DNA of 64,000 bases from an uncultured Lachnospiraceae bacterium. Lineage in GTDB: Bacteria > Bacillota > Clostridia > Lachnospirales > Lachnospiraceae. The stretch is taken from positions 1 through 64,000 of the forward strand of contig CACWQE010000007.1 in the NCBI GenBank assembly GCA_902762905.1, written 5' to 3'. Shown here piece after piece: positions 6,348 through 26,704 of the stretch. The notes under the pieces were generated by a model. That model was not told the origin of the DNA. It worked only from the letters and a program-made list of their open reading frames with translations, and searched no databases. The first letter of the stretch is position 1. Every line of letters starts with the position of its first letter. The position numbers and the translations under genes were made by a program.

Positions 6348-6386
6348 AAAAAACGGTAGTCCCAGAGGTTCATCTGAAACTACCGT
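6348..6386 (-). terminator. Rho-independent terminator closing the pilus cluster
   Basis: On the minus strand, an 8-bp outer stem (ACGGTAGT/ACTACCGT at 6379-6386 and 6353-6360) encloses an inner CAGA/TCTG stem and is followed by a T6 run (6348-6353). It sits directly after the stop of the 1881-residue protein gene. Confidence 0.85.
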
Positions 6387-6396
6387 CTGACAAACA

Positions 6397-9300
6397 TTAA
6401 ATATTGAACTTATTTCTGTTCGTAACATCAACATTTGAATACACTGGTATGTTATTATAACTTGGTATTACAAATATTGTATTATCCGTCAAGTCGAATA
6501 ATGTCTGCTGCAATCTAATTTTGATTCTTGCGAATGCCGTCTTTCCTTGATTATCCTTTGCCCATACTACTATATATGTATAGTTACCATAATTTGCAAA
6601 ATAATCAATGGTATGACCATCTTTATCCTTCTTTTCATTCAAACCTAACGTATCACCATAAGGATCACCATCTGTTGGTGCGAACTTATACATGCCTTTT
6701 CGAAGTTTAACATTAATCTTATTTTCCTCAATCTTAACCTTCTCATCTGCATTGTCCTGATCAAACGGTCCCTTATACTGATGAATCAATACATGATTTG
6801 CATCATCTGTATAATTATTAGAATAATCACCCTCCGGATTGATACTATCATAATTCAAATCATAGAATACTAATACTTCACTCAATCCACCTGACAGAGA
6901 ACTAAATTTCACATCAAAGTTAAACTCTGGATATTCGGTAACATTATCTAACTTGTACACAATATTACCTTCTTCATCTAACTTCATCTTGCCATTAGAA
7001 TCCTCTGTAATCTCTTTATTATCAGTATCTTTAATTGTTACCTTTGGTCGAGAACCCGAATTACGTACAGAATCTACTACGATATTAACATATAACATAC
7101 GTTCATCATTATTGTTCTTGTCCGCACCAGTTACAACAGAATGTCCGGCACCGCAATAGTGAACAGTTCCCTTTCCATACTGATATGAATATAAGAAGTA
7201 GTTATCCATACCATCATTTGGTGATGCAGCGTATAATGAAGATCTTGACTTGGCATCACCAGCAGTCGTTGCTAAGCTAGAACCCGCTAATGCATACCAT
7301 ACAGCCATGTTCGAATCTTCCAAATCAGCTGCATATGTCTGCGTATGAGTTGGTGAAATCGTAAGATTCTCACCTAATGTGAATGGATATGTTGTAACAA
7401 TACCCTTATTCACCTGCGTTGCCTTGTTCGTTCCACCAATGCTGTTATTATCATAATCAACACCGATAGAATACTTAATACTATCTTGCAAGTTATATTC
7501 CACATACTTATAAGGCGATGTCAAATGAGACGCTGTCTCGAATATACCAACAGAATCCGTAGTACCTACCAAACTGATGATACCAAACAGACTACCACCA
7601 TTACCTACATTAGAAAAATCCTTTGCAGACTGCTGCCATACTACTAAGTCTTCTTGTGCATCCCCTAAAATAGATTTCTGTGTCATGAAATATTTAGGAT
7701 CAGCATATTTGTATACCGGATACCGTACAATACTCGAGCTTGATGGAGACAGTACAAAAATCTGCGACCATGGATTCTTATAAGTTGTCGTTCCTGATGC
7801 ATCAATCGGCAAGTTATCCGCATATTGGATACTTTGTGTCTGTAAATAGCACAACTGCCAACTATATGCATTAGAATGTCCCCAATTCGACTTCTTGTCA
7901 TTCTTCGCATCTTCTATCGTATCATACAAATTAAATGTCATCCCAAATCCATCACCCGGACTTACTGTATTTCCTTCTACGATACTATATGGCTTATAGA
8001 TCGTATACGAATTACCTGCCGTCTTAGTCTTAGCATTTGGGAATGGTTCTACCAGACTTTCATCCTTACGTACCAAGTTAACAGTTACATCCTTGTTGGT
8101 CAAAGTAATCGGACCGTAATATACATCATCCACTGTATCATGTACATAAGCTAACTTGTAAGTACGATCAGTAACTGTTGGTGTAGTTGCATTAATACTA
8201 TCCAATGTCGCATGGAATCGATCTATACCAAACACGCTTCTAAGCTCAGTTGTAATATTGACAGATCCTGCACTTTCATAACGAGTTGTTGAATCATGTG
8301 TAGTAAGTAAAGAGCCACCATCTTCTATATATTTCTTAACGGCACTACATTCATTCACAGTCAAATCTTTACCACCAAAATCTTCCGCAAAACCTAACAC
8401 AACCATATCATAATTTGTACCTAACCAATTATCGGCTGTACATGCATAATCAGAATACTTCTTGTACAGATTATGATATTTCACTACATCATCATGTAAT
8501 TTGGTCCATTCTTCATAATAAGATAAATAAGTTGCATCCATATTATAATATCCTGAATAATACATAAAGTAATTATAATATGCTTCATGATCAATCCACT
8601 GCTGAATCTGATCAGCAGTAACAACACCCATGTTACCCTTCTTACCTGCTGAACCAACTTCGCCCTGTAGATTCTTAAGGAATGTCTCCATATTGCTTGT
8701 ACAACTACTCTTATTTAACTTGCCAAGTGCCTTCTGCCATTGCTCATAATAAGAATCCGCTTTGATCTGATAATACTCAATCCAAGTAATTGCATTGCCA
8801 TCACCATCCGTAACCGGAGTAATTGTATTACCATCTTCATCTTTTCTTTCAACACCATTCGCATTATCCATGGTAACCGGCTTGCCATCTACACCTGTAT
8901 TTGCTTCCACAATGCTAGAGACTTCATGGAACTCATCAATCAACATAATATCCAGATCAAAATCATAATCATTCGCTAATTCATCTGCAAAGTTGGTATC
9001 CCAATTATCTGCTCCATTCTTATCGTGATTATCAATCTTCTGACCATTACTATCATACTTAACAATACCAAACTTATGCTCATGCAATCCCGTATATGTA
9101 AGTTTTGCAAAATCCTTCTTCGTTCCTGTTGTATTATAATGAAAATCAGCTGCTGACTGCGATACCAGATTATATTTTGCTTTGTAAGCAGCCAACTGAC
9201 ATTCTGTACACATATACAAAGTATGTGCATCCTGGGAACCAACACCGAAACCTTCATTTGCAACTTCATCGACAGGCATAATCTGAAGGGTACGAACTTC

Positions 9301-12042
9301 TTTCTTTTCAACCTCATCTTCTCTTACATAATATGCATATCCTGTCTTCACATCACAAGCCTGTGCAGTAGTGATTCCCTGTGTATAAAGAGAAGCCACT
9401 AATTTCCAACTTACCAATCCGTAGAAATCATCCTGCGGAAATTCATATACTAACTCAACCTGCTCGCTTGATCCATTACTCGTTGCCTGACAAGTAACAA
9501 TCTTCTCATGACCAGCTCCACCATCTACAATTTCATCCTGATCAAAAGTTCCATCACCATCCTGATCTACATATAAAACAAGCTTGCATAACACATTACC
9601 ATTCAAAGTATTCGCATTTACCGTTCCAGTAATCTTCATGGAATTGTCTACCTTCTTGTTATATGTAGATTCATCTCCTCTTGAATAATCCTTTGGCGAA
9701 CTATTGATAATCAAACTTGGACGAGTTGCTGATGCCTGAATCACATTCTTTATCTCATCAGCAGTGGTCTGATTAAACACAGTTACATAATCTCCTGCCT
9801 TTGCACCATACTTCTTGTCCTTATTATCATTATATTCATCTTTCTTATCGTACGCTGAAATATCCAAGTCCCATTTTATGTTTGCAGCTGCTGCCATCGT
9901 TGCTGCCGAGCCATCGTTCGCCGCAGTAACTGTACTATCAACTCCCTTATATTCAGTTGGATTATACTTAAAGTACGCATAATCCAATAATTTGAACATA
10001 TTAGAATCAGGATCAATATCCTTTGACATTAATTTCTCTAGACGCGTCTTGTTATATACTTTCATATATGCCTGAGAAACTGCATCACTAAACACAATTG
10101 GCATACCTGCATCAATATAATCCTTCAACTCTTTTAACTTAATGGAAGTAATATCATTACCATTCAACAGCACATCTGTTACTAAATTCTCTGAATTAGC
10201 AATTGTTCCATATGGATTACCACCTAATCCACTACCGGAATTACTACCGTATCCCTGTAAATGAGTTGCAATACCAGTATGCGTATACATATCAAACGAA
10301 CTTACAAATTTACTCTGATTATATGCAATAAAATTAGAAATACCCGTATAGTTACCACCAAAATCTGAACGTAAGGTATATGGTGTCAACGCACTTGTAT
10401 TGCCACCAATATATACAAAATCGTATGTATCCAAAACCACATCTTTAGTTGAAATAAATTCATCTGTTGACATCTGATCTATCTGGATCTGATTGTAACT
10501 AAGACCAGTTGCTCTCGCAATCTTAGCTGGTGTCACCTCAAATGCATAATACTCTGCTCCATTTGCTTCATCAACCGTAGTATTGGATAATACATCTCCT
10601 GGGTTCGTATAGTAATTACCTTCTAATCCCATACTTGTTGCAACCGCTGCACCTGTCATTGGTGATTTCTTGGCTGCAATATCCATATCGATTGGATAAC
10701 ACGGCTGAATCTCTAACACACGAAACTTCTTACCGTTACGACCATTTGATTCTGACCCACGGTAATTAGATCCATTGATCAAATCCGCAATTAATTTTGC
10801 ACCTTCCGTTTTCTTTGCATCACCGGCAAAGAATCCATTATCTACCGGCAATACATAAGCATATTTTGCTTTATTATCTGAAGTAACCAAGTTATTATAA
10901 AGCTCTAAATACTTATTACCGCCATTACCACCACTGTTATCTTTAGGATCTACATTAGCAACATCATAAATGATATACTGCGTGCCATCCGCCATTGTCT
11001 TTAAGGTATTATACACCTCTTCTGTCTGCGGTGTTGTCACTTCCACTTTAACTGCGCTATTCTCAATAAAGATAAACTCATATCCTTCGAGATCTGCACT
11101 TGTCAATGTTGTAATATCTTTATAGTCTAATGTAAAGTTTTCTGGATAAAAGCTGGATTTACCATAATAGATAGAACTCATTAACTCTTTCTTGGCAAAA
11201 TCCTCCGCCATAGTTCCACCAGCACCAATCTGTCCTGGTCCCTGCAATACCAAAATTTTACCACTTGCCTGAGCACTAATAACTTTACTAAAATAATGAG
11301 AAGTTCCTACACCAGCAAGAAAATCTTCTGCCGATTGACTTCTGTCCCAACCAAATACTGGCGAATACAAATAACGTTCTGATATCTCATTAATCAATGC
11401 CTTATACGTTTTGGTTGTAACTACCGCATCTCCAGACTTCTTTGGCTTATCAATAATAATCGGCTTATGGTCTGTCATTGCATAATTATTCTTAATATAG
11501 CTATAAATATCATCATCCATAGCATAACTACCAGTGTATACAGTTTCATTCGGTGCTTCTAAATAAATTAAATCTGCATTACCAAGTAAACTACCAACTG
11601 ATTGACCTGCACTTACTTCTGTCGTCAATTTGACATTTGCATCAATTGCCAGATCTGTAACTTGTACCTTACCAGGTGCCATTGTAGCAGTCTTCTTTTC
11701 ACTATTAGCATCAATAACTAAATTTTTGAAATTAGCATCTGTAACCGCATACTGTTCAATTGCATGCGTTCCCGTCATATTAGATGGAATAATATGAACA
11801 ATATTGTACATATAATCTGCTTCTTTATTAGAATCCTCAATAATAAGATCAATATTAGAAACATATTCCATATAGCCAAGATTACCATCTAAAGGTGCTT
11901 CTCTGTTTTGTAAATCTGAATTAATCTTTTCTGATTCTCCAACTCCATTACCAGCTAATGTATAGGCAGCAACTGAAACACCGAAGATTGCAACAATCAG
12001 TAATGCAATTGTAATTAAAAGTTTTTTCTTTTCTTTTAACAT
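6397..12042 (-). CDS. Giant exported pilus-cluster protein, DUF5057-like (1881 aa)
   Basis: Last gene of the pilus cluster. Its N-terminus, MLKEKKKLLITIALLIVAIF, is a lysine-rich stub plus one hydrophobic segment (residues ~8-28): an uncleaved anchor or Sec signal, not a prepilin leader. Around residue 442 it has KFRVLEIQP and near residue 940 RTLQIMPVDE. At ~1214-1255 it reads MVVLGFAEDFGG then GGSLLTTHDSTTR, resembling a ThuA/glutamine-amidotransferase-type fold. I associate this combination with DUF5057 proteins of Clostridia; that assignment is from memory. Function is unknown; the position after the minor pilins suggests a tip adhesin or surface partner. The reading frame extends to a GTG at 12060, but that codon lies just before the AAAGGAG site, which is correctly spaced for the ATG at 12042. 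Confidence 0.7.
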   Translation of the reverse strand: MLKEKKKLLITIALLIVAIFGVSVAAYTLAGNGVGESEKINSDLQNREAPLDGNLGYMEYVSNIDLIIEDSNKEADYMYNIVHIIPSNMTGTHAIEQYAVTDANFKNLVIDANSEKKTATMAPGKVQVTDLAIDANVKLTTEVSAGQSVGSLLGNADLIYLEAPNETVYTGSYAMDDDIYSYIKNNYAMTDHKPIIIDKPKKSGDAVVTTKTYKALINEISERYLYSPVFGWDRSQSAEDFLAGVGTSHYFSKVISAQASGKILVLQGPGQIGAGGTMAEDFAKKELMSSIYYGKSSFYPENFTLDYKDITTLTSADLEGYEFIFIENSAVKVEVTTPQTEEVYNTLKTMADGTQYIIYDVANVDPKDNSGGNGGNKYLELYNNLVTSDNKAKYAYVLPVDNGFFAGDAKKTEGAKLIADLINGSNYRGSESNGRNGKKFRVLEIQPCYPIDMDIAAKKSPMTGAAVATSMGLEGNYYTNPGDVLSNTTVDEANGAEYYAFEVTPAKIARATGLSYNQIQIDQMSTDEFISTKDVVLDTYDFVYIGGNTSALTPYTLRSDFGGNYTGISNFIAYNQSKFVSSFDMYTHTGIATHLQGYGSNSGSGLGGNPYGTIANSENLVTDVLLNGNDITSIKLKELKDYIDAGMPIVFSDAVSQAYMKVYNKTRLEKLMSKDIDPDSNMFKLLDYAYFKYNPTEYKGVDSTVTAANDGSAATMAAAANIKWDLDISAYDKKDEYNDNKDKKYGAKAGDYVTVFNQTTADEIKNVIQASATRPSLIINSSPKDYSRGDESTYNKKVDNSMKITGTVNANTLNGNVLCKLVLYVDQDGDGTFDQDEIVDGGAGHEKIVTCQATSNGSSEQVELVYEFPQDDFYGLVSWKLVASLYTQGITTAQACDVKTGYAYYVREDEVEKKEVRTLQIMPVDEVANEGFGVGSQDAHTLYMCTECQLAAYKAKYNLVSQSAADFHYNTTGTKKDFAKLTYTGLHEHKFGIVKYDSNGQKIDNHDKNGADNWDTNFADELANDYDFDLDIMLIDEFHEVSSIVEANTGVDGKPVTMDNANGVERKDEDGNTITPVTDGDGNAITWIEYYQIKADSYYEQWQKALGKLNKSSCTSNMETFLKNLQGEVGSAGKKGNMGVVTADQIQQWIDHEAYYNYFMYYSGYYNMDATYLSYYEEWTKLHDDVVKYHNLYKKYSDYACTADNWLGTNYDMVVLGFAEDFGGKDLTVNECSAVKKYIEDGGSLLTTHDSTTRYESAGSVNITTELRSVFGIDRFHATLDSINATTPTVTDRTYKLAYVHDTVDDVYYGPITLTNKDVTVNLVRKDESLVEPFPNAKTKTAGNSYTIYKPYSIVEGNTVSPGDGFGMTFNLYDTIEDAKNDKKSNWGHSNAYSWQLCYLQTQSIQYADNLPIDASGTTTYKNPWSQIFVLSPSSSSIVRYPVYKYADPKYFMTQKSILGDAQEDLVVWQQSAKDFSNVGNGGSLFGIISLVGTTDSVGIFETASHLTSPYKYVEYNLQDSIKYSIGVDYDNNSIGGTNKATQVNKGIVTTYPFTLGENLTISPTHTQTYAADLEDSNMAVWYALAGSSLATTAGDAKSRSSLYAASPNDGMDNYFLYSYQYGKGTVHYCGAGHSVVTGADKNNNDERMLYVNIVVDSVRNSGSRPKVTIKDTDNKEITEDSNGKMKLDEEGNIVYKLDNVTEYPEFNFDVKFSSLSGGLSEVLVFYDLNYDSINPEGDYSNNYTDDANHVLIHQYKGPFDQDNADEKVKIEENKINVKLRKGMYKFAPTDGDPYGDTLGLNEKKDKDGHTIDYFANYGNYTYIVVWAKDNQGKTAFARIKIRLQQTLFDLTDNTIFVIPSYNNIPVYSNVDVTNRNKFNI

Positions 12043-12078
12043 TTCTCTCTCCTTTTCCACCTTACTTAAGCTTGTAAC

Positions 12079-12909
12079 TTAATCGCCCTTAATCCTTAAT
12101 AATTGTGGTTTCACAGTCAATACATTGGAATTACGGATATTAACTGTTTCATCCATCTTATAATTATAACCTTTATACTTTGAATCCTCTAACAACATAT
12201 TAAGCGACACTGCTCCCGCACTCGGATCTACAGAGACTTTAAAATCATTCACATAGGATGAAAGAAGTCCATCTTCTCCAACTGACCCTAGCGAATTGAT
12301 TGCATCGGTAAAACTCGGAACTGATCCCAATGCAAATTCACCTGAACGATACATTTTTAATTCTGTATCATCATATCCAAATATTACATATGATTTTTTA
12401 TCCGAAGATATATTATATTCAATATATATATACTTCGGTGTAATATATTTATATTCCTGTCCCGGATCATCAACCTTTTTCAATGTATTCTTTGACAATG
12501 CCCAAAATGATAAAACAGTTCCGGCATCACCATCCACTTCCGAACCAGCCTGTGGATACTTTTTCTTTTCCTTATTGTAAAGCTCACCCGTACTCAGATC
12601 AACGATAACTTCTCGCGGTTTCTCAGAAACCGTAGAATTGGACAACTGGTAATTTGCATAATTATCCGGTACATACGATGTTCCATCATCCGCTTCAACC
12701 CGGATATAAGTTGCCTGCATAATTGCTTCTGACAGTTGGGAATAGATTCTTTGCGCTTCCGTTTGCATCTGCATATTCTTTTTCGCTTTGCGTTGCGAAA
12801 TTAATGTAGAGGAAACAAAACCACTAATCATCACCATAATAATGGATAGAATGGCAATTGAAATCAGTAACTCGACCAGGGAGAATCCACTATTGTTTTT
12901 ACTTTTCAT
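12079..12909 (-). CDS. Minor prepilin, PilW/GspJ-like
   Basis: A 276-residue type IV prepilin. The class III leader reads NNSG/FSLVELLISIAILS: cleavage after Gly, Phe at +1, Glu at +5, then the hydrophobic helix that packs in the pilus core. The helix runs on into QRKAKKNMQMQTEAQRIYSQLSEAI, the arrangement typical of PilW/GspJ minor pilins ('...QAQRVLSQLSED.'). The globular part is otherwise unrecognisable. A GGGGGA site precedes the ATG. It sits between the GspH-like gene (20 bp upstream) and the giant DUF5057-like gene. In GspH-I-J-K systems, J joins I and K in the priming tip. Confidence 0.8.
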   Translation of the reverse strand: MKSKNNSGFSLVELLISIAILSIIMVMISGFVSSTLISQRKAKKNMQMQTEAQRIYSQLSEAIMQATYIRVEADDGTSYVPDNYANYQLSNSTVSEKPREVIVDLSTGELYNKEKKKYPQAGSEVDGDAGTVLSFWALSKNTLKKVDDPGQEYKYITPKYIYIEYNISSDKKSYVIFGYDDTELKMYRSGEFALGSVPSFTDAINSLGSVGEDGLLSSYVNDFKVSVDPSAGAVSLNMLLEDSKYKGYNYKMDETVNIRNSNVLTVKPQLLRIKGD

Positions 12910-12929: not shown

Positions 12930-13406
12930 TTATTTAATATAATGGTTGCCTGTGATACTGTCCAAATGAATGGTGGCAACCAGATTACCAGTTTTATCGT
13001 AAAACTGATAATCTCCTGCACCATTTCCATTTACTACAGCTCCTGTTGATTTATCAAACTGAATTGTAACCTTAGAAGTACAATCTGCACCATTGTATTT
13101 AATTGTAACGTACTTATCCCACTTCTCATACTCCGTTGTGGATACTGTCTTCGCACCATCCACAATCTTAAGCTCATATGTTGTTCCATTTAATACAAAT
13201 TCTGCCTTCATACTTTGTTGTTGCGAAGCAGTTGCTTTCGTCGTCATCCATAGGTTTGTCAATTGCGAATCAAAAGTAGTGATTGCATCCTGTATCTTTG
13301 CCTTACGAATTAACCCCACAGACACGACAGCCAATCCTGATAAAACTGCCATAATCGCAAGAACAATCAACATTTCGACTAAAGTGTACCCTTTGTTTTT
13401 TCTCAC
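12930..13406 (-). CDS. Minor prepilin, GspH/FimT-like
   Basis: A 158-residue prepilin starting at GTG (MRKNKG/YTLVEMLIVLAIMAVL): Gly before the cut, Tyr at +1, Glu at +5. The small C-terminal domain, with an alternating hydrophobic beta pattern and a terminal DKTGNLVATIHLDSITG segment, resembles GspH/FimT pseudopilins. It is 15 bp downstream of the large K-like gene and 20 bp upstream of the J-like gene, so it is almost certainly in one transcript with them. The in-frame start is GTG; a nearby ATG is out of frame. Confidence 0.75.
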   Translation of the reverse strand: MRKNKGYTLVEMLIVLAIMAVLSGLAVVSVGLIRKAKIQDAITTFDSQLTNLWMTTKATASQQQSMKAEFVLNGTTYELKIVDGAKTVSTTEYEKWDKYVTIKYNGADCTSKVTIQFDKSTGAVVNGNGAGDYQFYDKTGNLVATIHLDSITGNHYIK

Positions 13407-13421
13407 CTCATCACCACTCCC

Positions 13422-16337
13422 TTAATTGGTTACATCTGTAACATTTTTCTTCCAGTTAACAAACTCCAAAATGTCTCCGAACTGAATTGTTGTAATTGTT
13501 CTAGCATTCTCCGTATCGTCATCTAATGTAATATCTGTCTGACTCTCATCACCGCCATAACTACGGAATAATCCAAGTGCTGTACGATACAATGTATTAC
13601 TATCTTTGGCATTATCTTCGCATACACGCAACACCGATTTAACAACTTCCTGGTTAGCAATGAAATCCATATCATGACTTACGATAACTTTACCACCTGC
13701 CACTATCAAGCCTTCAAAACTGCTAATATTATCTTCAAATGTAACATCACCCTTACAAATGATAATACCTTTTAACGCAGTACCTGCTTTATTTGCCTTA
13801 ATTGTAATATCACCTTCATTTAACCATAATCCATAACCCGAATCATCTAAGTTTGGATTTGCAACATCTTTAATTACACTATTAGAAAATGTTGAGAATT
13901 TGAAATAATGATTAATCGGCGTAATTGCACTCTCCCCTATGGTATGTGCAAGTTCTACATCCGTAGCAACTGTATCTTCCGTTGTCAACAACAATTTCAT
14001 TTCTTTGTATTGATTTCTCAGTTTATTGGTTACAGCCAACGATAACACATCACCACTTGCAGATTCCGCATTCAGAATTGCATCGCCATTATCACCCTTA
14101 GCATCTTCACCTTCATTGATACGATTTGCCGCCTGAACCAAAGCTGCTGTTGACTTCTTGCTGTCAGCGACAATATTAAATGTATTACCAACTTTTATCG
14201 TCAATGCTGCATTAGAATAAATTCTTTCGAAATCAGTCTGTGTAGAATTATTCGCAGTTGGCAGTTTTAACATGTTAACCTGAAAATCTTCATAATCTGT
14301 AATATCCGTTAAATATGCTTTTGCAGCAGAAGTTGAACCATCTTCAAATAACTTACTGTATGCCGCAATAAACTTATTCACATCCTGATCATCTGCTTTC
14401 GCAGCTGTTGTGAAATCAAAATAGTAATATTTTTTTCCATCAATGATAGATACAACAACCGGAATCTTAGAAAGTGCTTTTTTCATTCCTTCCTTTGGAT
14501 CTGGCCACACATCTTTAAATGGTGACTCTGACAACACAGCTTCTGGAAGTGTTACATAATAACCTGTTACATTACCATCCTTATCTGTATCTTCCAATAA
14601 GGAACTCGGTGGAATATATGCAAGCTGATTACTCTTGATAGAAACAGCTTCACCTGTCTTGTAATCCTGTACCGCTTTGCGCTTCTTCCCCTTACTTGTA
14701 GCTGTATATTCCTTATCGCTTGTATAGTTGCCATCTTCATCATTGTTTGCATATGAGAATGTATGTACTTCTACATCTTCATTAACAACTTCTCCATCTT
14801 CATTAACGTAAGAACTCATCTCCTGAGTCTCCGTCTTTGTCTTCTTTGACAATTCAATATAAGACTGTCCCGCAATGTACATACTTGATACATCTTTAAG
14901 ATCTAAAGTTGCATTCTCACCATTAATAATAACAGAACTACTATTGTAATGAGCCTGACCAGTCTGTTCTGCATTCTTTGATTCATCCCAATTATGTGCA
15001 AATAGTCCATTCTTCTGTAAATATCTCGTTGAAAATGATCTATTGTCTGTTGTAGAATTATTATAGCCGTAATATTCACCAATCAAGGCAAATCTTGCTC
15101 CCGTCGCATTTACTTCCAAGTCATCTGAAATATAACAATTAGCATTCAGTGAAACTTCTGAACCTTTCAGTGATTTTCCACCTTTTTTCATAGAGTAACC
15201 ACCTAACACAATGCTATCTGCCCATATATCAGCTTTGCCAATTGTATTGCCACTAATTGCACTAACTGTAAGATTTGACATATTCATTGATGCAATCGTA
15301 CCAGGAACAACAATTTTATTCGCTGTAATAACAACATCAGAATTACTCATATAGATACCAGAATACATACTTGACTCTCTCGTACCATCATCCTGTAACT
15401 TGAATCTATTATCATCCAAATTGCCAGTTACACCATAAGAACATACCGGAACTGTATACATGTCTGCCAACTTATTACCTGCTCCGCCACTATTCAAGGA
15501 CGAATTTGCGGAGATTGCACCTTTGACGGTATCTGCTTTATCTCGATTAGTTACATCCGTGCCTGTTCCATTGTAGTCCTTGTTATAGAAATCAGATGCC
15601 GCATACACGTCACCAGTAATATTAACCTTAGAATTTGTAATCTCAATACCTTTATCTGCAATCATTGAAAACGAAAACAAATTATTCAACGAAGCATCTA
15701 TTGTTTGGAATGATACACTAAATTGCGGCTCTCCAATCACTAAGTCTGTTGTAATCGACTGTGTAAACTGTGTAGCACTACCCGTATTTCCAACCCTAAA
15801 TGTAGAATAATCTGCCGTTCTTGAAAGGGTTAGATTCAGCAAAGTAAGATTATCATCATTTGTATTCTCGACCTTCTGAATAGAAAGCTTAACGCCATCG
15901 TCTCCCACATCATCATAGCAATAAGACATATAACTCTTCAATTTAGCTTCCGCTTTAGGTACACTTTCATACTGTTCTGCCGCTTTTACCAACTTAATAA
16001 ATGTCTTTTTCAGCATTTTATTTGATGTTTCATTATCCATTGTAACATAAGACTTCGTTGTCGCATCATAATATACTACAACTTCTAGTGTACTTTCATA
16101 CGCCTCACTTAATTTCTGCATAGAATCAGCACCAACACCTGCATAGATTTCATCCATTGCCTGCTCTAAGTAATAGAAATTATCTCTCGAGTTAATATCC
16201 AGTGCTTTTAACTTGTAACATAATGCAATGGCTACAAGTAACGCAGATGTCAATACTGCAAGAAACGAAAGGGTTACAATAACCATAATAAATGTATTAC
16301 CTTGGTTATTATTATGTTTTTTTATTTTTTTCAACAT
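13422..16337 (-). CDS. Large PilX/GspK-like pilus tip protein (971 aa)
   Basis: The N-terminus NNNQG/NTFIMVIVTLSFLAVL has a prepilin-type Gly and hydrophobic helix (residues ~17-40), but residue +5 is Met rather than Glu. Loss of Glu5 is characteristic of GspK/PilX proteins, which cap the pilus tip. The rest is far longer than usual for GspK (~300 residues). It contains long stretches of short beta-strand units (for example IEITNSKVNITGDVYAAS near residue 230 and GLIVAGGKVIVSHDMDF near 890), suggesting a beta-helical or bactofilin-like solenoid. The start ATG overlaps the preceding stop (TAAATG), with GGGGGA just upstream. It is probably the K component of the minor-pilin complex and may itself be an adhesive head. 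Confidence 0.65.
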   Translation of the reverse strand: MLKKIKKHNNNQGNTFIMVIVTLSFLAVLTSALLVAIALCYKLKALDINSRDNFYYLEQAMDEIYAGVGADSMQKLSEAYESTLEVVVYYDATTKSYVTMDNETSNKMLKKTFIKLVKAAEQYESVPKAEAKLKSYMSYCYDDVGDDGVKLSIQKVENTNDDNLTLLNLTLSRTADYSTFRVGNTGSATQFTQSITTDLVIGEPQFSVSFQTIDASLNNLFSFSMIADKGIEITNSKVNITGDVYAASDFYNKDYNGTGTDVTNRDKADTVKGAISANSSLNSGGAGNKLADMYTVPVCSYGVTGNLDDNRFKLQDDGTRESSMYSGIYMSNSDVVITANKIVVPGTIASMNMSNLTVSAISGNTIGKADIWADSIVLGGYSMKKGGKSLKGSEVSLNANCYISDDLEVNATGARFALIGEYYGYNNSTTDNRSFSTRYLQKNGLFAHNWDESKNAEQTGQAHYNSSSVIINGENATLDLKDVSSMYIAGQSYIELSKKTKTETQEMSSYVNEDGEVVNEDVEVHTFSYANNDEDGNYTSDKEYTATSKGKKRKAVQDYKTGEAVSIKSNQLAYIPPSSLLEDTDKDGNVTGYYVTLPEAVLSESPFKDVWPDPKEGMKKALSKIPVVVSIIDGKKYYYFDFTTAAKADDQDVNKFIAAYSKLFEDGSTSAAKAYLTDITDYEDFQVNMLKLPTANNSTQTDFERIYSNAALTIKVGNTFNIVADSKKSTAALVQAANRINEGEDAKGDNGDAILNAESASGDVLSLAVTNKLRNQYKEMKLLLTTEDTVATDVELAHTIGESAITPINHYFKFSTFSNSVIKDVANPNLDDSGYGLWLNEGDITIKANKAGTALKGIIICKGDVTFEDNISSFEGLIVAGGKVIVSHDMDFIANQEVVKSVLRVCEDNAKDSNTLYRTALGLFRSYGGDESQTDITLDDDTENARTITTIQFGDILEFVNWKKNVTDVTN

Positions 16338-17846
16338 TTAATTTCCCCCTTTCGATCCAGATATAATCGGTAAAGAATTCTTATATTTCGTCATTCTTCC
16401 CGTCGTGCTGTCGACAGACAAATCAGCCAAGAAATCGCTATAATCTGATATATTATATGGCTTGTCTGATATATATATATCAACACTATATAATGGATTT
16501 TCAATCTGTGCAGCCTCGCTCATATTTTTCATATTTATCTGCTTAACGAAATTATAACCAGATACCATATTTGTGTCACCCGCTGGTACAACAGTATATT
16601 TGTTAACCGAAGAAATCGGTGTCTTAGTACCACCTGCATTTTCATCAAAGTTATGATAAACCTTTACATTATCTGCATCTGGATTATCACACATAATATT
16701 CACATTGACATTAGCACGCTCTTTAATCGCATCATTATTAATCAAATATGCATTTCTATAAGACTGCTCTACCTGATTCAACTGACTCTGTGACGGCTCT
16801 GTACCCGCATGTTCCTCTTTATACTGCACACGATATGCCTCTACAATACCTTTAATTGCATCTTCCGAAAACTGTTCTGCAGTCTCAACCACATACAATT
16901 CAACATTCTGATCAGATGACACTTTTGAAGTATTAAGCAAAATGTAATCATTATCCATATAATTACTATTATATAAACATGGATTGTACATTAAATATAT
17001 TGCAGGAAGTGTATCGTAAAAAGTCTGCTTATAAGGCACATACTCAATTGGTGACAAATAACTCGATAAACTCTTACCAGCATATACGCCATCTTTTAAA
17101 GTATATGTTGATTTATCTTTGTACCGTAACTTACAAGTTACTGTATATGTCTTTTTTGTTTCTCCATCTTTGATCTTGCTGCCTTCTTCAACCGATATTT
17201 CAACCACACGAGTTGCACTATCATTTGGAAACGCTACAATATCTGCCTGCTGTTTTGTATACTGTTCCCATCTGGCTTTGTCGCCAACACGTAAAATATC
17301 TAATTTCTTTGACATAAATGCATTTGTAACAGTCAGATCATAGTTGCCAATTGTACCATTAATAATCGCAAAATCTTTGGCATCAAAGTTGGCAATTGCA
17401 GGAAGAATTTGATTATTCGGATTTTCATATGTAGACTCATTTCCTTCTTTTTTTGCATATTCAATGTTATTCACATGAATAGCATAATAAAAATCTTCAT
17501 TCTTTCTTCCCACTTTTGCCTGGCCAGTCATTACATAGCCATCAAATGTCTTGCCATTAATCTGTCCGTTTCCTGCCACACCTTGTATTGTTCCAGCTTT
17601 AGTGGCATTCTGAACAGCTGCAGTCAATCCTGATTTGTTTGGATCAAAAAATTCATCATCTTCATTCTTAATGTTTTCCATTAAATTCTCTGCATATTCA
17701 TACTTATTCTGTGCAGTTTTCGACTTATTAGAGGTATTCATTGCAACAACTAGCTTACTTACTATTGGCCCGATCAAAATGCCAAATACAACAACAGCAA
17801 TCGCTAATTCTACAAACGTAACACCTCTATTATGGATTTTCTTCAT
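16338..17846 (-). CDS. Large minor prepilin, PilV/GspI-like (502 aa)
   Basis: Leader MKKIHNRG/VTFVELAIAVVVFG: Gly before the cut, Val at +1, Glu at +5, then a hydrophobic helix. After the helix, NKYEYAENLMENIKNED resembles the 'A..LAE.LME' region of PilV/GspI minor pilins. The ~450-residue globular part is much larger than typical family members and has no fold I recognise. The frame extends to a GTG at 17858, but the GGAGTGA site is correctly spaced for the ATG at 17846. The stop abuts the start of the K-like gene, indicating translational coupling, and the pilO-like gene lies 19 bp upstream. Confidence 0.7.
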   Translation of the reverse strand: MKKIHNRGVTFVELAIAVVVFGILIGPIVSKLVVAMNTSNKSKTAQNKYEYAENLMENIKNEDDEFFDPNKSGLTAAVQNATKAGTIQGVAGNGQINGKTFDGYVMTGQAKVGRKNEDFYYAIHVNNIEYAKKEGNESTYENPNNQILPAIANFDAKDFAIINGTIGNYDLTVTNAFMSKKLDILRVGDKARWEQYTKQQADIVAFPNDSATRVVEISVEEGSKIKDGETKKTYTVTCKLRYKDKSTYTLKDGVYAGKSLSSYLSPIEYVPYKQTFYDTLPAIYLMYNPCLYNSNYMDNDYILLNTSKVSSDQNVELYVVETAEQFSEDAIKGIVEAYRVQYKEEHAGTEPSQSQLNQVEQSYRNAYLINNDAIKERANVNVNIMCDNPDADNVKVYHNFDENAGGTKTPISSVNKYTVVPAGDTNMVSGYNFVKQINMKNMSEAAQIENPLYSVDIYISDKPYNISDYSDFLADLSVDSTTGRMTKYKNSLPIISGSKGGN

Positions 17847-17865
17847 GCCATGAATCACTCCATTC

Positions 17866-19110
17866 TTATTTGTAAATCTTCACTGAACCAGATTTACTAG
17901 CAACGTTTACACGTCCTGATGATGCATCATCATCCGCAACTTTTACGTAGACTGGAAGCTTAGATGTATTATTAATTGTAACCCTAACTCCAACCTTATC
18001 CTCTTCATCTTTCTTAGCAGATGACTGTAACAACACTTTAATATCCTCTGCTGAAGTTACTTCTGCTGTATAAGAAGTTGAATTATCCAAAACATATTTA
18101 CAATATGTCTTTCCATCTTCCTCATAGAAATCAAAACTTAATGTTGAAACACTATTATCACTATTAGAAATCACACTTGCATCTTTGCCTGAACCATTCT
18201 GTCCAACAACCTTAGCAGAAACATCACTTCCTGATGGATTCAATAAGGCATAGAAGTCATAACTATTCACGATTGCCGCACCATCATTTTCATCATACTT
18301 ATTAAGCGAAGAATCACTTCCGCTTGCAGAACCGCTTCCGCCCTCGAAAATATTACCTACACCAACTTCTACATCATCAAGATCAATTGAGCGAGGTGAA
18401 CGATCTGGGCTTTCAATTGCGTAACACATCAGATTCATCTTACCTGTATACAGATTATCTTCTGCATCATAAGCAATTTCAATACTATCTACAGTCATAC
18501 GATCTGTATATGTATCTACATAAGATACAATATCCTTAATTGCACTATAACTTCCTGTATATTCAATTGGAAAAGCTGCACGATAGCACTGATATCCAGC
18601 ATCCGTTGCATTCTCTGCTACGTCTGTTGTTCCGTCAGCTGCAGTTGTTGTCTCTGTTGTTGCTGTAGTCACCTCTGTAGTCGTCGCCTCTGTAGTTGCA
18701 GCAGTATCTGTTGTGCTACCATCTGTAAGTGCAGCATCTCCTCCTCCAACTCCTAATGTGTAGAATTGCTCTTTCTCGCCCAATCCTAATGACGTAACAT
18801 CAAATTCATAATCTTCTTTAATTCCCTGTAAGAACATAATGCTAATTTCCTGATTCAGATCTGCAGGAAATGAATTCATAATATCATCAAATTTTCCTTG
18901 ATATTCCTCTGTCTCAGCCAGATATTGATCACGTTTTGCCTGTTTACCCTGTAATTCCACCAATCTTGCTTGTAAAGTCTGATTCTCACTCTTAATTCTT
19001 GAAACGTCGTCCATATTAGGTTTTGCTACATATAATATTGACATTACAGCAATTACAACACCTACAAGTCCGATCAATAACGCTTTTTGTGAATTAGTAA
19101 TACTTCCCAT
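17866..19110 (-). CDS. pilO: Type IV pilus alignment protein PilO-like
   Basis: A 414-residue bitopic inner-membrane protein. One transmembrane segment (residues ~9-29, ALLIGLVGVVIAVMSILYVA) is followed by a coiled coil (ENQTLQARLVELQGKQAKRD) and the FPADLNQE motif usual at the start of the PilO ferredoxin-like domain. The domain is split by a Thr/Ala-rich low-complexity insert (~130-165) containing TTEATTTEVTTATTETTTAA. The C-terminal ~150 residues look like an extra beta domain. PilO pairs with PilN to link the motor and platform to the pilus. AGGAGGG precedes the ATG; it follows pilMN by 12 bp. Confidence 0.8.
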   Translation of the reverse strand: MGSITNSQKALLIGLVGVVIAVMSILYVAKPNMDDVSRIKSENQTLQARLVELQGKQAKRDQYLAETEEYQGKFDDIMNSFPADLNQEISIMFLQGIKEDYEFDVTSLGLGEKEQFYTLGVGGGDAALTDGSTTDTAATTEATTTEVTTATTETTTAADGTTDVAENATDAGYQCYRAAFPIEYTGSYSAIKDIVSYVDTYTDRMTVDSIEIAYDAEDNLYTGKMNLMCYAIESPDRSPRSIDLDDVEVGVGNIFEGGSGSASGSDSSLNKYDENDGAAIVNSYDFYALLNPSGSDVSAKVVGQNGSGKDASVISNSDNSVSTLSFDFYEEDGKTYCKYVLDNSTSYTAEVTSAEDIKVLLQSSAKKDEEDKVGVRVTINNTSKLPVYVKVADDDASSGRVNVASKSGSVKIYK

Positions 19111-19122
19111 TCTTCATCCCTC

Positions 19123-20760
19123 CTATTCTGCTGGAACTGTCTCTAATGTTGCATCTCCTGCATTCTGCTCATCAAGAGTTGCCTCATCCTCTTCATCCGT
19201 TGAAACAAATACAGCTGTCAAATTAAATGTACTAATCTCTTCGCCAGTCTCCTCATCTAACTCAGTTGCAATATCTGTAACAAATACATCATCAATGCAA
19301 TCAATTTTCTTTAATTGAATAATAAATTTGGCAATTGCATCATAATTCTTTGCTGTACCTTCCATTTTAATATCAGCATCCGTAGACGAATAAGTAGCAA
19401 TCTGCAAATCTTTCGGCTGATTCTTCTCTAACTCGTCAAACAGAGTTGAGAAATTCTCATTCAATGTCTTAGTCTGATCATACATACTCTTGATATCATC
19501 ATACTTAGCCATAACATCATCATGTTCACTAATAATCTGATCAATATCAGCAATTGCTGCAATCTGTGCATTTAATGAATTCTGTTCTGCCTGTGCATTG
19601 TTCTTCATAACAATCGTAGCCACAGATGCTCCTGCTGCAATCACAACACCAGCAATCAAAACACCTACTCCATACTTCATATAATCCGCACTATTAGCAC
19701 CCTTTGTCTTAACCTCTGTAGGACGGAATCCCATCGGTGCAAAAGCAGCACCAATCGGAGAGATTAAATATACTGGATTATAAATCTTAAGATCAATTTT
19801 AGGGTCGAACTTAACATTATATAAACTATCCATAATCTTGGTCTGGATGTTTAACTGAATCTTAAATAAACCATCAATACCACGAATCAGTGCACCATCA
19901 CCTGTTAAGAACACATCATCAATCGGCTTGTCTGGATTCTTTGCCACATAATAGTCAATAACACGACCAACGTTATTAATCAAATAACGAAATGCTCCTG
20001 TTGCTGCATTGTCGTCAAAATCAACTGTTACCAATCGTTCATTCTGTAATAATGTCATTGCTGTTGTCGCATCCACACCTTTTTCATCCATAACTTCTGT
20101 CACAACAGCATTCGTTCCATATGGGACAGTACGTTGTAACAACAACGTATCTCCTTTTACAATATTTAAAATTGTAGACTCACTACCCAACTGGATAACC
20201 ATTGTTGTCATAGTTGAACTTGTCTGTGTCTTGATCAACTGCAACATAGAATTACCAACATAATCCACTGCCTGTACAGTCAGTCCCAACATACTTCCCA
20301 ATTCATAATAGCCCTTCACCATTGCAATTGGAGCTGCAACTACCATCAATTTCAACTGCTTGCTCTTATCTTCATTGACAACATGTTCCAATATAGTATG
20401 AGACACAATATAATCTTCTACATTAACAGGGAAATATTCTGAAGCATTCGCTGCAACAATTCCCTTTACCTTATTCTCTTTTACATCTGGAATTAATACT
20501 TCACGGTTAACCGCTTTCGTAGAACTCAAAATAAAGATTGCGTTTTTATTGGTTACACCGTTTGCCTCTAATTGTTCCTTAATAGCTGCCGCAATCTTTT
20601 CAATATCCCGAAGTGCACCATCTTCATATGCATCTTCTGGTGTCTCAAATATTAATGCATTATGCACTACCGTCTGTTTCTTTGTTGAAGGTGATACTTC
20701 AACAATCGTAATACTTTCATTTGTTATTTCTATTGTTAAGACTTTATTACTCTTTGCCAT
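19123..20760 (-). CDS. pilMN: PilM-PilN fusion protein
   Basis: Residues 1-~345 are the actin-like ATP-binding PilM domain: VLTIEITNESITIVEV at the N-terminus, then EYFPVNVEDYIVSHTI and DDVFLTGDGALIRGIDGLF. One transmembrane helix (~361-384) and a PilN-like periplasmic part follow (coiled coil SLNAQIAAIADIDQIISEHD, then a ferredoxin-like domain with IKMEGTAKNYDAIAKFI and a final FNLTAVFV strand). In most bacteria PilM is cytosolic and binds the N-terminus of PilN; here they are one chain. A pilMN gene is known in Clostridioides difficile, so the fusion has precedent. GGGAGG precedes the ATG. The acidic C-terminal tail is unusual. Confidence 0.85.
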   Translation of the reverse strand: MAKSNKVLTIEITNESITIVEVSPSTKKQTVVHNALIFETPEDAYEDGALRDIEKIAAAIKEQLEANGVTNKNAIFILSSTKAVNREVLIPDVKENKVKGIVAANASEYFPVNVEDYIVSHTILEHVVNEDKSKQLKLMVVAAPIAMVKGYYELGSMLGLTVQAVDYVGNSMLQLIKTQTSSTMTTMVIQLGSESTILNIVKGDTLLLQRTVPYGTNAVVTEVMDEKGVDATTAMTLLQNERLVTVDFDDNAATGAFRYLINNVGRVIDYYVAKNPDKPIDDVFLTGDGALIRGIDGLFKIQLNIQTKIMDSLYNVKFDPKIDLKIYNPVYLISPIGAAFAPMGFRPTEVKTKGANSADYMKYGVGVLIAGVVIAAGASVATIVMKNNAQAEQNSLNAQIAAIADIDQIISEHDDVMAKYDDIKSMYDQTKTLNENFSTLFDELEKNQPKDLQIATYSSTDADIKMEGTAKNYDAIAKFIIQLKKIDCIDDVFVTDIATELDEETGEEISTFNLTAVFVSTDEEDEATLDEQNAGDATLETVPAE

Positions 20761-20806: not shown

Positions 20807-21607
20807 TCACATCCCCAACATGCCCAGATACCAGCTCACAAGCTGTTCACCGCATATCATTGTAATATAAACGCCCAAAGATAAATACGGGCCGAAAGCA
20901 AACTGTCGTCCGCTTTCCTTAATCTTCATTATAATCAGATGTATCACCGACCCTGCAATACAACCAATTCCTAATGCTATAAAATTAAGTTTCCAGCCTA
21001 ATAGTAAGCCAGTTGCTGCCATTAATTTGATGTCACCGTCCCCTATCACGCTACTTATCTCTTCACCATAACGCCGTCTCATAAGCGGCGTAGCAATCCA
21101 GTTCGTAACGCATAAAAAACCGCTGACTGCAATAAGACCAATTAAATATTGTAACCAATTAGAATAATCTGCAAATAAATGAATTAGTCCACACACACAA
21201 ATAATACAAGTATACTCCACTGGAATATACTGTGTCATCCAATCAACTATACTCAATGCCAAAAGCATTCCCGCAGAAATAATATATAGAACATTCTGTA
21301 TGTTATTGCCCCCTGACCAAAGGAGCAATCCAGATATTAAAATAAATGTACAACCAAACCATATATATTGCTGTGTCGTTGCCCTTTTTCTGGCACAACA
21401 TTGCTTTCGAACATTCAAAAACGCAACAAGCATAAACTCACTCACAACATTGCTCTTTCCATGAAAAAAATCTTTACGTGCAAAGCACGTCTCTTTTTTT
21501 TCACATTCTGCGCAATCCTGCTCCGCCACATATAACACATAATATGCAAGTGGTACACTCGTCGCACTCAGTATAATTGTCAATACAATTATTAAAATAT
21601 AATACAT
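20807..21607 (-). CDS. pilD: Prepilin peptidase (A24 family)
   Basis: A polytopic membrane aspartyl protease that removes prepilin leaders. Catalytic aspartates lie in SIVDWMTQYIP and in the hallmark GDGDIKLMAATG; FGPYLSLG near the end is also conserved. The N-terminal ~90 residues contain a CAEC pair and a later C and CC, but do not look like the standard N-methyltransferase domain, so the methylation function is uncertain. The frame can be extended to a TTG at 21646, but that codon lies beside the loop of a strong hairpin (21627-21657); the ATG at 21607 is preferred, with a weak AGGG site. Encoded right after the major pilin. Confidence 0.85.
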   Translation of the reverse strand: MYYILIIVLTIILSATSVPLAYYVLYVAEQDCAECEKKETCFARKDFFHGKSNVVSEFMLVAFLNVRKQCCARKRATTQQYIWFGCTFILISGLLLWSGGNNIQNVLYIISAGMLLALSIVDWMTQYIPVEYTCIICVCGLIHLFADYSNWLQYLIGLIAVSGFLCVTNWIATPLMRRRYGEEISSVIGDGDIKLMAATGLLLGWKLNFIALGIGCIAGSVIHLIIMKIKESGRQFAFGPYLSLGVYITMICGEQLVSWYLGMLGM

Positions 21608-21626
21608 ATCTTCATATACCCTAAAT

Positions 21627-21657
21627 GGTACATTCCCTATGTACAAGGGAATGTACC
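21627..21657 (-). promoter_or_regulatory. Stem-loop between major pilin and prepilin peptidase genes
   Basis: A perfect 11-bp inverted repeat (GGTACATTCCC / GGGAATGTACC) with a 9-nt loop starts 12 bp after the pilin stop codon. No T-run follows on the minus strand, so it is not a standard terminator. It is well placed to protect the pilin mRNA 3' end or to attenuate transcription into pilD. Confidence 0.75.
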
Positions 21658-21669
21658 TCTAAGTTGTTA

Positions 21670-22131
21670 TTATTTAAGGTTAGAACCAGTTTCTGGATAA
21701 ACCTCATTTGCTGCATTTGCATCACCAACATATACTTTAATTGTATTACTTGCTGCATCCAAATCAATGTAGAATGTCTGATCCATGGAGCCACCCTGCA
21801 TATCCTTCTTAGCCTTACCGGTCGGAACAGAAGTTGTACCCAAAGCAGAAGCAAACTCTGTCTTGAAACTGTCGCCTGACAAATCAGCTGCAGCCAATGG
21901 ATGCATTGACCATGAATTAGTTCCTGAAGGCGCTACATCAAACGCATTTTCATTAGACAATGCTGTTGTGATAGCTGTTGCAATTGTCTGTCCAGTCTGG
22001 ATATCTGTAGAGATTCTAGACTTGTTGATGTACTTGATCAATGCTGGTGCAAGAGCACCTGCTAAGATAGCCATAATCGCAATAACGATAATAAGCTCAA
22101 CCATTGAGAAACCTTTGTTTGTTTTTTTCAT
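21670..22131 (-). CDS. pilA: Major type IV pilin
   Basis: A 153-residue prepilin with a textbook leader, MKKTNKG/FSMVELIIVIAIMAIL: short basic leader, Gly at -1, Phe at +1, Glu at +5. The hydrophobic helix runs into ALIKYINKSRISTDIQTGQT, as in major pilins of Clostridia. The globular domain is small, has no Cys pair, and ends in ...YPETGSNLK. It is taken as the major subunit because it is small, directly follows a long structured leader region and precedes pilD. AAAAGGAGAG precedes the ATG. Flanking RNA structures suggest separate control of its level relative to the assembly genes. Confidence 0.88.
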   Translation of the reverse strand: MKKTNKGFSMVELIIVIAIMAILAGALAPALIKYINKSRISTDIQTGQTIATAITTALSNENAFDVAPSGTNSWSMHPLAAADLSGDSFKTEFASALGTTSVPTGKAKKDMQGGSMDQTFYIDLDAASNTIKVYVGDANAANEVYPETGSNLK

Positions 22132-22426: not shown

Positions 22427-23641
22427 TTACATATTGTCAATACCTTCGTACATACTAAGGATAGGACCGTATACTGCTGCTACAATCAAGCCTACAATAC
22501 CAGCCATCAATACCATAGTTAACGGTTCCATTGCTTGTGTCAAAGATTCTGTTGCAAGATCCACTTCTCTCTCATAGAGATCTGCAACCTTATCCATCAT
22601 GTCTTCAATATTACCTGTCTCTTCACCAATCTTAACCATCTGCACTAACATAGTCGGGAACACTCCCATATCCTTTAATGGTTTAGAAAGTGGAAGACCT
22701 TTTGCAACCTGCGCTTTTGTATCCATCAGTCCATCCCGGAAAATCTTGTTGTCCATCATCTTAGCAACCTGTTCAATTGCATCTAACATCGGGATACCTG
22801 CTGCCATCAAAGTGCTTAACGTTCTTGCAAATCTAGAAGCATTCGACTTAATTACCAAATCCTTGAAGATTGGTGCATTAATCGCAATCTTAGCTGAAAG
22901 CAACTGACCCGTTGGTGTTGCTTTGAACATCTTCACACCGAACACGATAGCTGCAATTATAACAACTAACAAGTACCACTTTGTTAATATAAAATTACTA
23001 CCTGCCATCATTAATCTAGTTGCCCACGGTAACTGGGTTCCCATATCTGCAAACATATCTACAAATGAAGGAATAACTGCAATCATAACTACAACGATAA
23101 CTAAGACAGCTACAATCATGACAATAATCGGATACGTTAACGCTCCCTTAATCTTACCCTTCAGCGCATCATCCTTCTCAAAGTGAGTAGACAGTCTTGC
23201 AAAAGAAGTCTCCATACTACCTGAAGCCTCACCAGCAGCTACCATGTTAATCATAATTGGTGGAAATACACTCGGATTCAAACGCATCGCATCTGAGAAT
23301 GTTCCACCTTTCTCTACATAAATCTTCGCCTCTACCAACGCATTCTTAAGTGTCTTATTGTCCATCTGTTCTGACAACATCTCTAACGCCGTAATTACCG
23401 TAACACCAGCATTCAAAATACTTACCATCTGTTTACACAATATCGACAGATCACGACTCTTCACCTTTTTCTTTCCGATGCTGATTCCTTTTCCAGTAGA
23501 TTCACCTGCATCTTTCATCTCTGTCACTGACAGGCCTTCTGACTTCAGCTTGTCCATCGCTTTCTCACGATCTGCTGCATCAATGGTTCCCTTCTTAGCT
23601 TTACCATTGGCATCTACTGCCTTGTAATTAAACTGTGCCAT
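22427..23641 (-). CDS. pilC: Type IV pilus inner-membrane platform protein PilC
   Basis: A 404-residue GspF/PilC protein on which PilB and PilT act. It starts MAQFNYKAVDANGK, the family's usual opening, and has two GspF domains (~65-190 and ~270-390), each with the conserved 'LSTLLAAGI/ILNAGV...AL' pattern (CKQMVSILNAGVTVITALEM and ARTLSTLMAAGIPMLDAIEQ) and G-E-x-S/T-G-x-hxxxh motifs (AAGEASGSMETSF, KIGEETGNIEDMM). Three hydrophobic segments are visible. The frame extends seven codons upstream (23662), but GGAGGAG is spaced correctly for the ATG at 23641. Confidence 0.92.
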   Translation of the reverse strand: MAQFNYKAVDANGKAKKGTIDAADREKAMDKLKSEGLSVTEMKDAGESTGKGISIGKKKVKSRDLSILCKQMVSILNAGVTVITALEMLSEQMDNKTLKNALVEAKIYVEKGGTFSDAMRLNPSVFPPIMINMVAAGEASGSMETSFARLSTHFEKDDALKGKIKGALTYPIIVMIVAVLVIVVVMIAVIPSFVDMFADMGTQLPWATRLMMAGSNFILTKWYLLVVIIAAIVFGVKMFKATPTGQLLSAKIAINAPIFKDLVIKSNASRFARTLSTLMAAGIPMLDAIEQVAKMMDNKIFRDGLMDTKAQVAKGLPLSKPLKDMGVFPTMLVQMVKIGEETGNIEDMMDKVADLYEREVDLATESLTQAMEPLTMVLMAGIVGLIVAAVYGPILSMYEGIDNM

Positions 23642-23673
23642 TCTAACTCCTCCACCATTCATCTTCCATTCAT

Positions 23674-23830: not shown

Positions 23831-24883
23831 TTACATCTTTTTCTTCATTGCTGCCTGATCCTGTGCATAAATTAGTGCATTTTCACGACTAATTGCCCCT
23901 TCTCTGTACAATTCATACAAATGATCATCCAATGTGATCATACCCATCTGTCGACTTGTCTGGATGGTTGACTGAATCTGATGCGTCTTAGCCTCACGAA
24001 TCAAGCTTCGGATTGCTGGGCTGCCAAACATTACCTCAAATGCAGCAACTCGTCCTCTTCCATCTTCCGCAGGTACTAACGCCTGTGAGATAACACCTTC
24101 CAAGATCATTGCTAACTGTACTCTTGTCTGTTGCTGCTGATGCGTCGGGAACACGTCGATAATACGGTCGATCGTGTTCGCAGCTCCGATGGTATGCAAA
24201 GTCGAGAAAACCAAGTGTCCGGTCTCAGCCGCTGTAATAGCCGTCGAGATCGTCTCAAGGTCACGCATCTCTCCTAACAGAATAATGTCTGGATCTTCAC
24301 GAAGTGCAGCTCTCAAGGCATTACCATAACTCAATGTATCCATACCAACTTCCCGCTGGTTCACAACTGACTTCTTATGATGATGTACATACTCGATTGG
24401 ATCCTCCAGGGTAATAATATGATCTGTCAGGTTCTCATTCGCTTTATTAATAATAGAAGCAAGTGTTGTAGACTTTCCGGAACCGGTAGGTCCGGTTACC
24501 AATACCAATCCTCTCTTTCTCTTATAGAGTTCTACAACCTCTGGTGGAATTCCCAACTGATCCGGTCTTGGAATCACCGTCTCTACCCGTCGGTAAGCAG
24601 CTGCCATATTACCACGATCCATAAATACATTCACACGGAAACGTCCTGTCTCATCACTATCGAATGAAAAGTCGACCTCGCCTCTCTCCTTGAGAATCTG
24701 TTTATGTCTCTCATGCATTGTTGCACCGATCATCTCTGCCGCATCTGCCGGTTCCAATGGTGGGCACTCCACCTCGATCAGTTTACCATTAATTCTAAGC
24801 TTCGGTGGAATACCTACCGCAATATGTACATCGGAAGCTTTCTGCTCCACCGAAAACGCTAATAACTCCTTAACATCAATCAT
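23831..24883 (-). CDS. pilT: Pilus retraction ATPase PilT
   Basis: A 350-residue hexameric secretion ATPase that depolymerises pili (twitching, DNA uptake). Visible motifs: SDVHIAVG at the N-terminus; Walker A GPTGSGKST near residue 130; Asp box (TLEDPIEYVH); Walker B DPDIILLGEMRD; His box (GHLVFSTLHT). The AIRSLIREAKTHQI segment near the end is the PilT-type AIRNLIRE motif, which separates it from PilB. Length is normal for PilT. GGAAAGGGG precedes the ATG; pilB ends 66 bp upstream. Confidence 0.95.
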   Translation of the reverse strand: MIDVKELLAFSVEQKASDVHIAVGIPPKLRINGKLIEVECPPLEPADAAEMIGATMHERHKQILKERGEVDFSFDSDETGRFRVNVFMDRGNMAAAYRRVETVIPRPDQLGIPPEVVELYKRKRGLVLVTGPTGSGKSTTLASIINKANENLTDHIITLEDPIEYVHHHKKSVVNQREVGMDTLSYGNALRAALREDPDIILLGEMRDLETISTAITAAETGHLVFSTLHTIGAANTIDRIIDVFPTHQQQQTRVQLAMILEGVISQALVPAEDGRGRVAAFEVMFGSPAIRSLIREAKTHQIQSTIQTSRQMGMITLDDHLYELYREGAISRENALIYAQDQAAMKKKM

Positions 24884-26668: not shown

Positions 26669-26704
26669 ATGCAAAAACCTCTCATAAAATTTAATTGCTT
26701 TTAT

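Follow-up and report, generated by a model that had tools for sequence, protein, structure and literature searches.

A DUF5057 protein encoded behind the minor pilins of Lachnospiraceae type IV pili as a candidate exchangeable tip protein

Tip adhesins of the PilY1 type have been described for the most part in Gram-negative bacteria, and the grip of monoderm type IV pili (T4P) on their targets is known mainly from the modular pilins of Streptococcus sanguinis. PilY1/PilC (PF05567), the Gram-negative type IVa tip adhesin, is encoded next to the minor pilins and is a large secreted non-pilin with variable modules and a Ca2+-type loop, and the DUF5057 protein described here is like it in all these respects, as well as in its short hydrophobic/aromatic C-terminal tail (PMC11046646, PMC13190605). 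In contrast to PilY1, the DUF5057 protein has no beta-propeller but ThuA/GATase-like and Ig-like domains and occurs in monoderm Bacillota, and while only the N-terminal domain of PilY1 is exchanged, the whole DUF5057 protein is swapped for unrelated ones. PilY1 primes pilus assembly (PMC13190605), and AlphaFold-Multimer predicts that the last eight residues of Myxococcus PilY1.3, LQNVYELP, join PilX3 as an additional beta-strand (PMC11046646). S. sanguinis PilB, which has a VWA module, and PilC, which has a lectin module, likewise give a monoderm T4P adhesion at its tip via added modules, but these are fused to pilins (PMC8179133, PMC9934059), whereas the protein described here is encoded by a separate gene after the J-type minor pilin, a position called the slot below, and has no prepilin leader. 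Fibro-slime/PA14 proteins (TIGR02148), for which cellulose binding at the surface of Fibrobacter has been proposed (PMC4668043), occupy the same slot in seven sister species and have only the type of tail in common with DUF5057.

The DUF5057 protein is previously unstudied, the literature search having found no paper that names it, and many gut bacteria encode it directly behind the subunits of the pilus tip. If the tip protein is indeed a separate, exchangeable one that docks by a short C-terminal tail, this would account for how the tip works in many gut Lachnospiraceae, assign a role to a domain of unknown function and offer a simple rule at the sequence level by which other genomes could be searched for tip proteins from unknown families.

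The pilus operon and its last gene

The window, which is the whole stretch of 64,000 nucleotides that was analysed, carries on its (-) strand a complete T4P operon in the order pilB-T-C-A-D-MN-O-N-K-H-J-DUF5057. Pfam models identify a PilB-type ATPase with T2SSE and MshEN (24950..26674), a PilT-type ATPase with T2SSE (23831..24883), the platform protein PilC (T2SSF, 22427..23662), the major-pilin candidate PilA, which matches N_methyl (21670..22131), the prepilin peptidase PilD (20807..21646) and a PilM-PilN fusion (PilMN, 19123..20760). The protein of 414 aa at the PilO position (17866..19110) has no Pfam match and is assigned by synteny. It is followed by a minor pilin of 506 aa with a GspG/PilV-like N-terminus (16338..17858; N_methyl E 6e-4) and by a large K/PilX-type protein of 971 aa (13422..16337), which is recognized from its sequence, is syntenic throughout and matches no Pfam family in the window's species; its N-terminus is hydrophobic and the usual Glu5 is missing. 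An H-type minor pilin of 158 aa (12930..13406; N_methyl E 2e-9) and a J/W-type minor pilin of 276 aa (12079..12909; N_methyl E 1e-8) complete the series, the latter being the conserved upstream neighbour of DUF5057 (68 of 69 loci have one of J-type). Its length differs among the homologues of L030-L108, the shortest having about 170 and the longest about 1280 aa, with two size groups of about 170-230 and about 590-1280 aa outside the window's genus, and the large J proteins that were scanned have the leader and no other Pfam domain.

The last gene (6397..12042, (-) strand) encodes the DUF5057 protein of 1881 aa, and the open reading frame noticed in the preliminary description is real; the Pfam search gives PF16480 (DUF5057) with E 4e-30 and 105.9 bits over two stretches (cut-off 27.9). 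The ATG at 12042 is a likelier start than the listed GTG at 12060, because the ribosome-binding sequence ggagag precedes the ATG. After the stop codon lies an intrinsic terminator hairpin (6351..6388, (-) strand; fold -22.5 kcal/mol, z -4.8) followed by a T tract, which the automatic terminator scan missed and which bears out the earlier claim that the gene is the last of the pilus operon before a strong terminator. That the gene closes the operon rests on this terminator, because the next gene of the same strand, which encodes a BspA-type leucine-rich-repeat (LRR) surface protein of 1811 aa (873-6308), starts about 90 bp past the DUF5057 stop codon.

Domain architecture and C-terminal tail

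The DUF5057 protein begins with MLKEKKKLLITIALLIVAIFG, and the model places a hydrophobic helix, either signal peptide or anchor, at aa 3-29 (11956..12036). There is no prepilin motif and no N_methyl match, so that an N-terminal membrane/secretion segment without prepilin leader is confirmed and identity as a type IV pilin is rejected. The N-terminal half of the AlphaFold model contains three alpha/beta domains and one Ig-like domain (mean pLDDT 76). Alpha/beta domains 1 (aa ~77-260, 11263..11814) and 2 (aa ~262-425, 10768..11259) are delimited by predicted secondary structure, and domain 3 (aa ~440-770, VLEIQP...GNDIT, 9733..10725) by both the model and Pfam, as the DUF5057 match starts here. 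Ig-like domain 1 (aa 773-909, 9316..9726; VIA-align Z about 8) contains a Ca2+-loop-like sequence motif, DQDGDGTFDQDE (aa 826-837, 9532..9567). Putative Ca2+-type loops of the Dx(D/N)xDG kind occur in 92 of the 98 proteins of the family, some 13-fold more often than in the background, and the domain that carries the loop is not the one that carries it in PilY1. Ig-like matches filled the list of the structure search with this half, which hardly compared the alpha/beta domains with known folds.

In the C-terminal half (mean pLDDT 72), aa ~909-1666 (7045..9318) form a ThuA/GATase-like domain with large insertions. Its top VIA-align match is 4pxy_A, the ThuA-like protein BACUNI_01602 of Bacteroides uniformis, which has the same fold (Z 15.7, rmsd 4.2, 231/244 residues aligned); the next rows, OST48/WBP1 (Z 11.6) and the GATase domain of ADC synthase (Z 10.6), are well below it. 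Unlike 4pxy, the DUF5057 domain is embedded in a giant surface protein, carries large insertions and has no Pfam ThuA match. The fold was seen only with VIA-align; plain Foldseek gave no match for this half at E <= 0.001, Pfam and NCBIfam gave no ThuA or GATase profile match in the protein, and a profile compared with PDB sequences found no relative of it. The resemblance to ThuA/GATase proteins noticed earlier in the segment GFAEDFGG...HDSTTR, which lies inside this domain, is thus upheld at the level of fold and fails at that of sequence profiles, where DUF5057 itself is the family recognized. H1249-D1250 (8293..8298) and G1633-H1634 of this domain are nearly invariant in 72 homologues. As to the catalytic Cys-His-Glu of glutamine amidotransferases, the conserved motif, in an alignment read by eye only, is T-H-D-S/T and not a G-x-C-x-G elbow. 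The domain is followed by Ig-like domain 2 (aa ~1662-1846, 6505..7059; VIA-align Z about 7), which leads directly into the motif LFDLT. The long beta-rich regions of the preliminary description therefore correspond in part to two Ig-like domains, and in part are replaced by three alpha/beta domains. As a whole, the model shows several domains in a protein targeted to the membrane, with an Ig-like domain and a tail at its C-terminus, and not the lone soluble enzyme that would have told against the earlier proposal. Membership in the PilY1/PilC family is rejected, as PF05567 does not match and the model has C-terminal ThuA-like and Ig-like domains; an order-wide search with PF05567 also gave no matches, in which the controls were equally silent.

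LFDLT (aa 1848-1852, 6487..6501), which tail statistics single out as a proposed docking strand, follows the last Ig strand in a part of the model with low confidence. Most DUF5057 proteins have a motif of the LFxL[DE] type as their very last residues, and those of sister genera end at LFDLT. In the window's genus the tail is not terminal, because most DUF5057 proteins run about 20-30 residues past LFDLT; this extension (6400..6486 in the window) often ends in ...R..FNI. The last five residues fit the pattern [LIVMFY][FYKPI]x[LM]x in 78/88 DUF5057 proteins of the first set, 6/7 PA14 proteins and 8/9 other slot proteins, compared with 17/2073 other open reading frames of at least 150 aa. Because this pattern had been broadened after several types of cargo were seen, it was applied unchanged to loci fetched later, where 17/29 new DUF5057 proteins have it; a relaxed pattern, chosen afterwards, matches 29/29 of these and 54/2073 background frames. 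The strictest pattern, which was learned from DUF5057, matches 0/7 PA14 proteins. The likeness of this tail to that of PilY1.3 suggests, by analogy, docking by strand addition. The DUF5057 proteins of L202, L203 and L204 (Paenibacillaceae-like) end in DRY or NRY and not in LFxL.

Linkage to type IV pili and exchange of the slot protein

In a sample of 250 genomes of the family, representing 249 genera, PilMN is present in 55/57 genera with DUF5057 and in 19/193 others (odds ratio 252, p 3e-36), and 51 of 61 DUF5057 places share the strand of PilMN and lie 7-14 kb downstream of it. Of the two exceptions without PilMN, G248 (L194:8379-14338) has the C-terminal half of a DUF5057 gene right behind PilB-PilT-PilC, apparently in a decayed pilus operon, and the locus of G444 (L195) is cut by the contig end. 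Frequent occurrence of homologues in genomes without T4P, which would speak against a pilus partner, is thus not what the family presents. In the order, DUF5057 occurs in 12 of 196 genomes, ten of them with the same pilus neighbourhood; the other two are G042, where it lies on a 4.6-kb contig, and G094, which has only a short sub-region in common with the family. A scan of named genomes, for which an alignment of ten diverse homologues was too divergent while a five-member alignment worked, used patterns from the C-terminal core alone and gave 80 loci, mostly of Lachnospiraceae. Among the 69 loci with at least 1.5 kb upstream, a J-type minor pilin is immediately upstream in 63 and within two genes in 68, and a K gene is upstream in 67.

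Three genomes from another class of the wider phylum (5.6-6.8 Mb, with Paenibacillaceae-like gene content) have DUF5057 beside a divergent pilB-T-C-A-D-MN operon, and in L205 and L206 a short operon that encodes two prepilins and a PilX_N-like protein converges on it. The one protein of this class that was scanned is fused to an "ice-binding-like adhesive" domain (PF20597, E 5e-40). Two secreted proteins of about 1050 aa (L196:1052-4201 and L197:3826-6996) have only a short ThuA-like part in common with DUF5057, and the DNA read around them holds no pilus genes.

The slot after J can be filled by other proteins. In the window's genus, 21/26 genomes have an orthologue of PilMN and 13/26 have DUF5057. 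Seven genus-mates without DUF5057 have the orthologous operon, with PilMN 64-72% identical, and after J a secreted PA14-domain protein of 885-1222 aa; the four that were scanned match TIGR02148 fibro-slime with E about 1e-24, and BLAST found no similarity between PA14/fibro-slime slot proteins and DUF5057. In the K and J trees the seven genomes form one supported clade, so that one replacement together with matching minor pilins is enough to account for them; several independent cargo swaps in the genus are unsupported. In another genus, the slot protein of L162 has VWA and L-type lectin modules, VWA and lectin modules being also found in S. sanguinis PilB and PilC, respectively, and one gene of 379 aa lies between it and J. 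Large secreted slot proteins without Pfam matches are found in further genera (L159, L174, L177, L184, L191), and some of these may be very divergent relatives of DUF5057. A large slot protein is missing from many pili of related groups that do have J, so a slot protein of the DUF5057 type is not essential to T4P generally.

Proposed role of the DUF5057 protein

The adjacency to minor pilins, the replacement in the slot by proteins with adhesive modules and the common tail support the earlier suggestion of a pilus-tip adhesin, and the DUF5057 protein is likely to be an exchangeable non-pilin tip protein of monoderm T4P, analogous to PilY1 but of a different family and docked by its C-terminus. 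The analogy in role and not in sequence proposed in the preliminary description stands for the sequence, and for the role it is a conclusion drawn from linkage, slot exchange and tail. As the slot is also filled by known kinds of sticky proteins, the DUF5057 protein probably serves mechanically as an exchangeable grip at the end of the pilus. The N-terminal segment would secrete the protein, and the LFDLT-type tail together with the Ig-like domain at the C-terminus would fasten it to the complex of the N, K, H and J minor pilins, probably, by analogy with PilY1.3, as a beta-strand added to either the K (PilX-like) or the J subunit. The docked complex could then prime pilus assembly and travel outward at the tip. 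There the alpha/beta and ThuA-like domains, helped by bound Ca2+, would reach a ligand, which is most likely a glycan or else another surface.

The near-invariant His-Asp and Gly-His pairs could mean, as far as residue conservation can tell, enzymatic activity instead of or besides adhesion. The DUF5057 protein would in that case be a pilus-linked surface enzyme, whose ThuA-like domain processes a sugar or glycan while the pilus only displays or exports it and adhesion is secondary, to which the ThuA-like fold itself and the many gut and rumen bacteria among the carriers would also be suited. This is unlikely, as PA14/fibro-slime and VWA-lectin proteins in the same slot point to binding and not to one enzymatic reaction, and the proteins with a ThuA module outside pilus loci (L196, L197) have no tail. 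Less probable still is a membrane-held assembly or priming factor with no adhesin role, kept at the pilus base by the N-terminal helix: this helix may be an uncleaved anchor, and PilY1 itself primes assembly (PMC13190605), but exchange for unrelated adhesive modules and absence from many related pili are unexpected of an essential factor, and the member from the other class bears an adhesive domain. An unrelated secreted protein merely co-transcribed with the pilus genes, as its place at the operon's end next to another surface protein (BspA LRR) might suggest, is very improbable given the tail common to unrelated slot proteins, the near-constant proximity of J and a linkage kept in two classes despite a change in the order of the genes, which speaks against hitch-hiking alone.

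The reading of DUF5057 as an exchangeable tip protein can be extended to a plug-in tip of Lachnospirales T4P, for and against which the chances are about even. A conserved C-terminal docking tail would mount unrelated secreted proteins, such as the ThuA-like DUF5057 giants, the fibro-slime/PA14 proteins and the VWA-lectin proteins, on the same kind of minor-pilin complex, which would amount to a modular T4P binding code across gut bacteria. The tail would consist of a hydrophobic residue, a usually aromatic or hydrophobic one, any residue, Leu or Ile, usually Asp, Glu or Thr, and the terminal carboxylate.

Some loci have additional genes at this position. In G190 (L022:7171-17298), two tandem DUF5057 genes lie behind one pilus operon, and in one subgroup DUF5057 has another PilB-type ATPase gene right after it (L067, L071, L074, L076, L078, L080, L082, L083, L085, L095, L097, L100). 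A relative of the window's BspA-type LRR protein (35% over 1885 columns) comes after the PA14 slot protein in L140, and this surface protein therefore accompanies the slot whatever its cargo.
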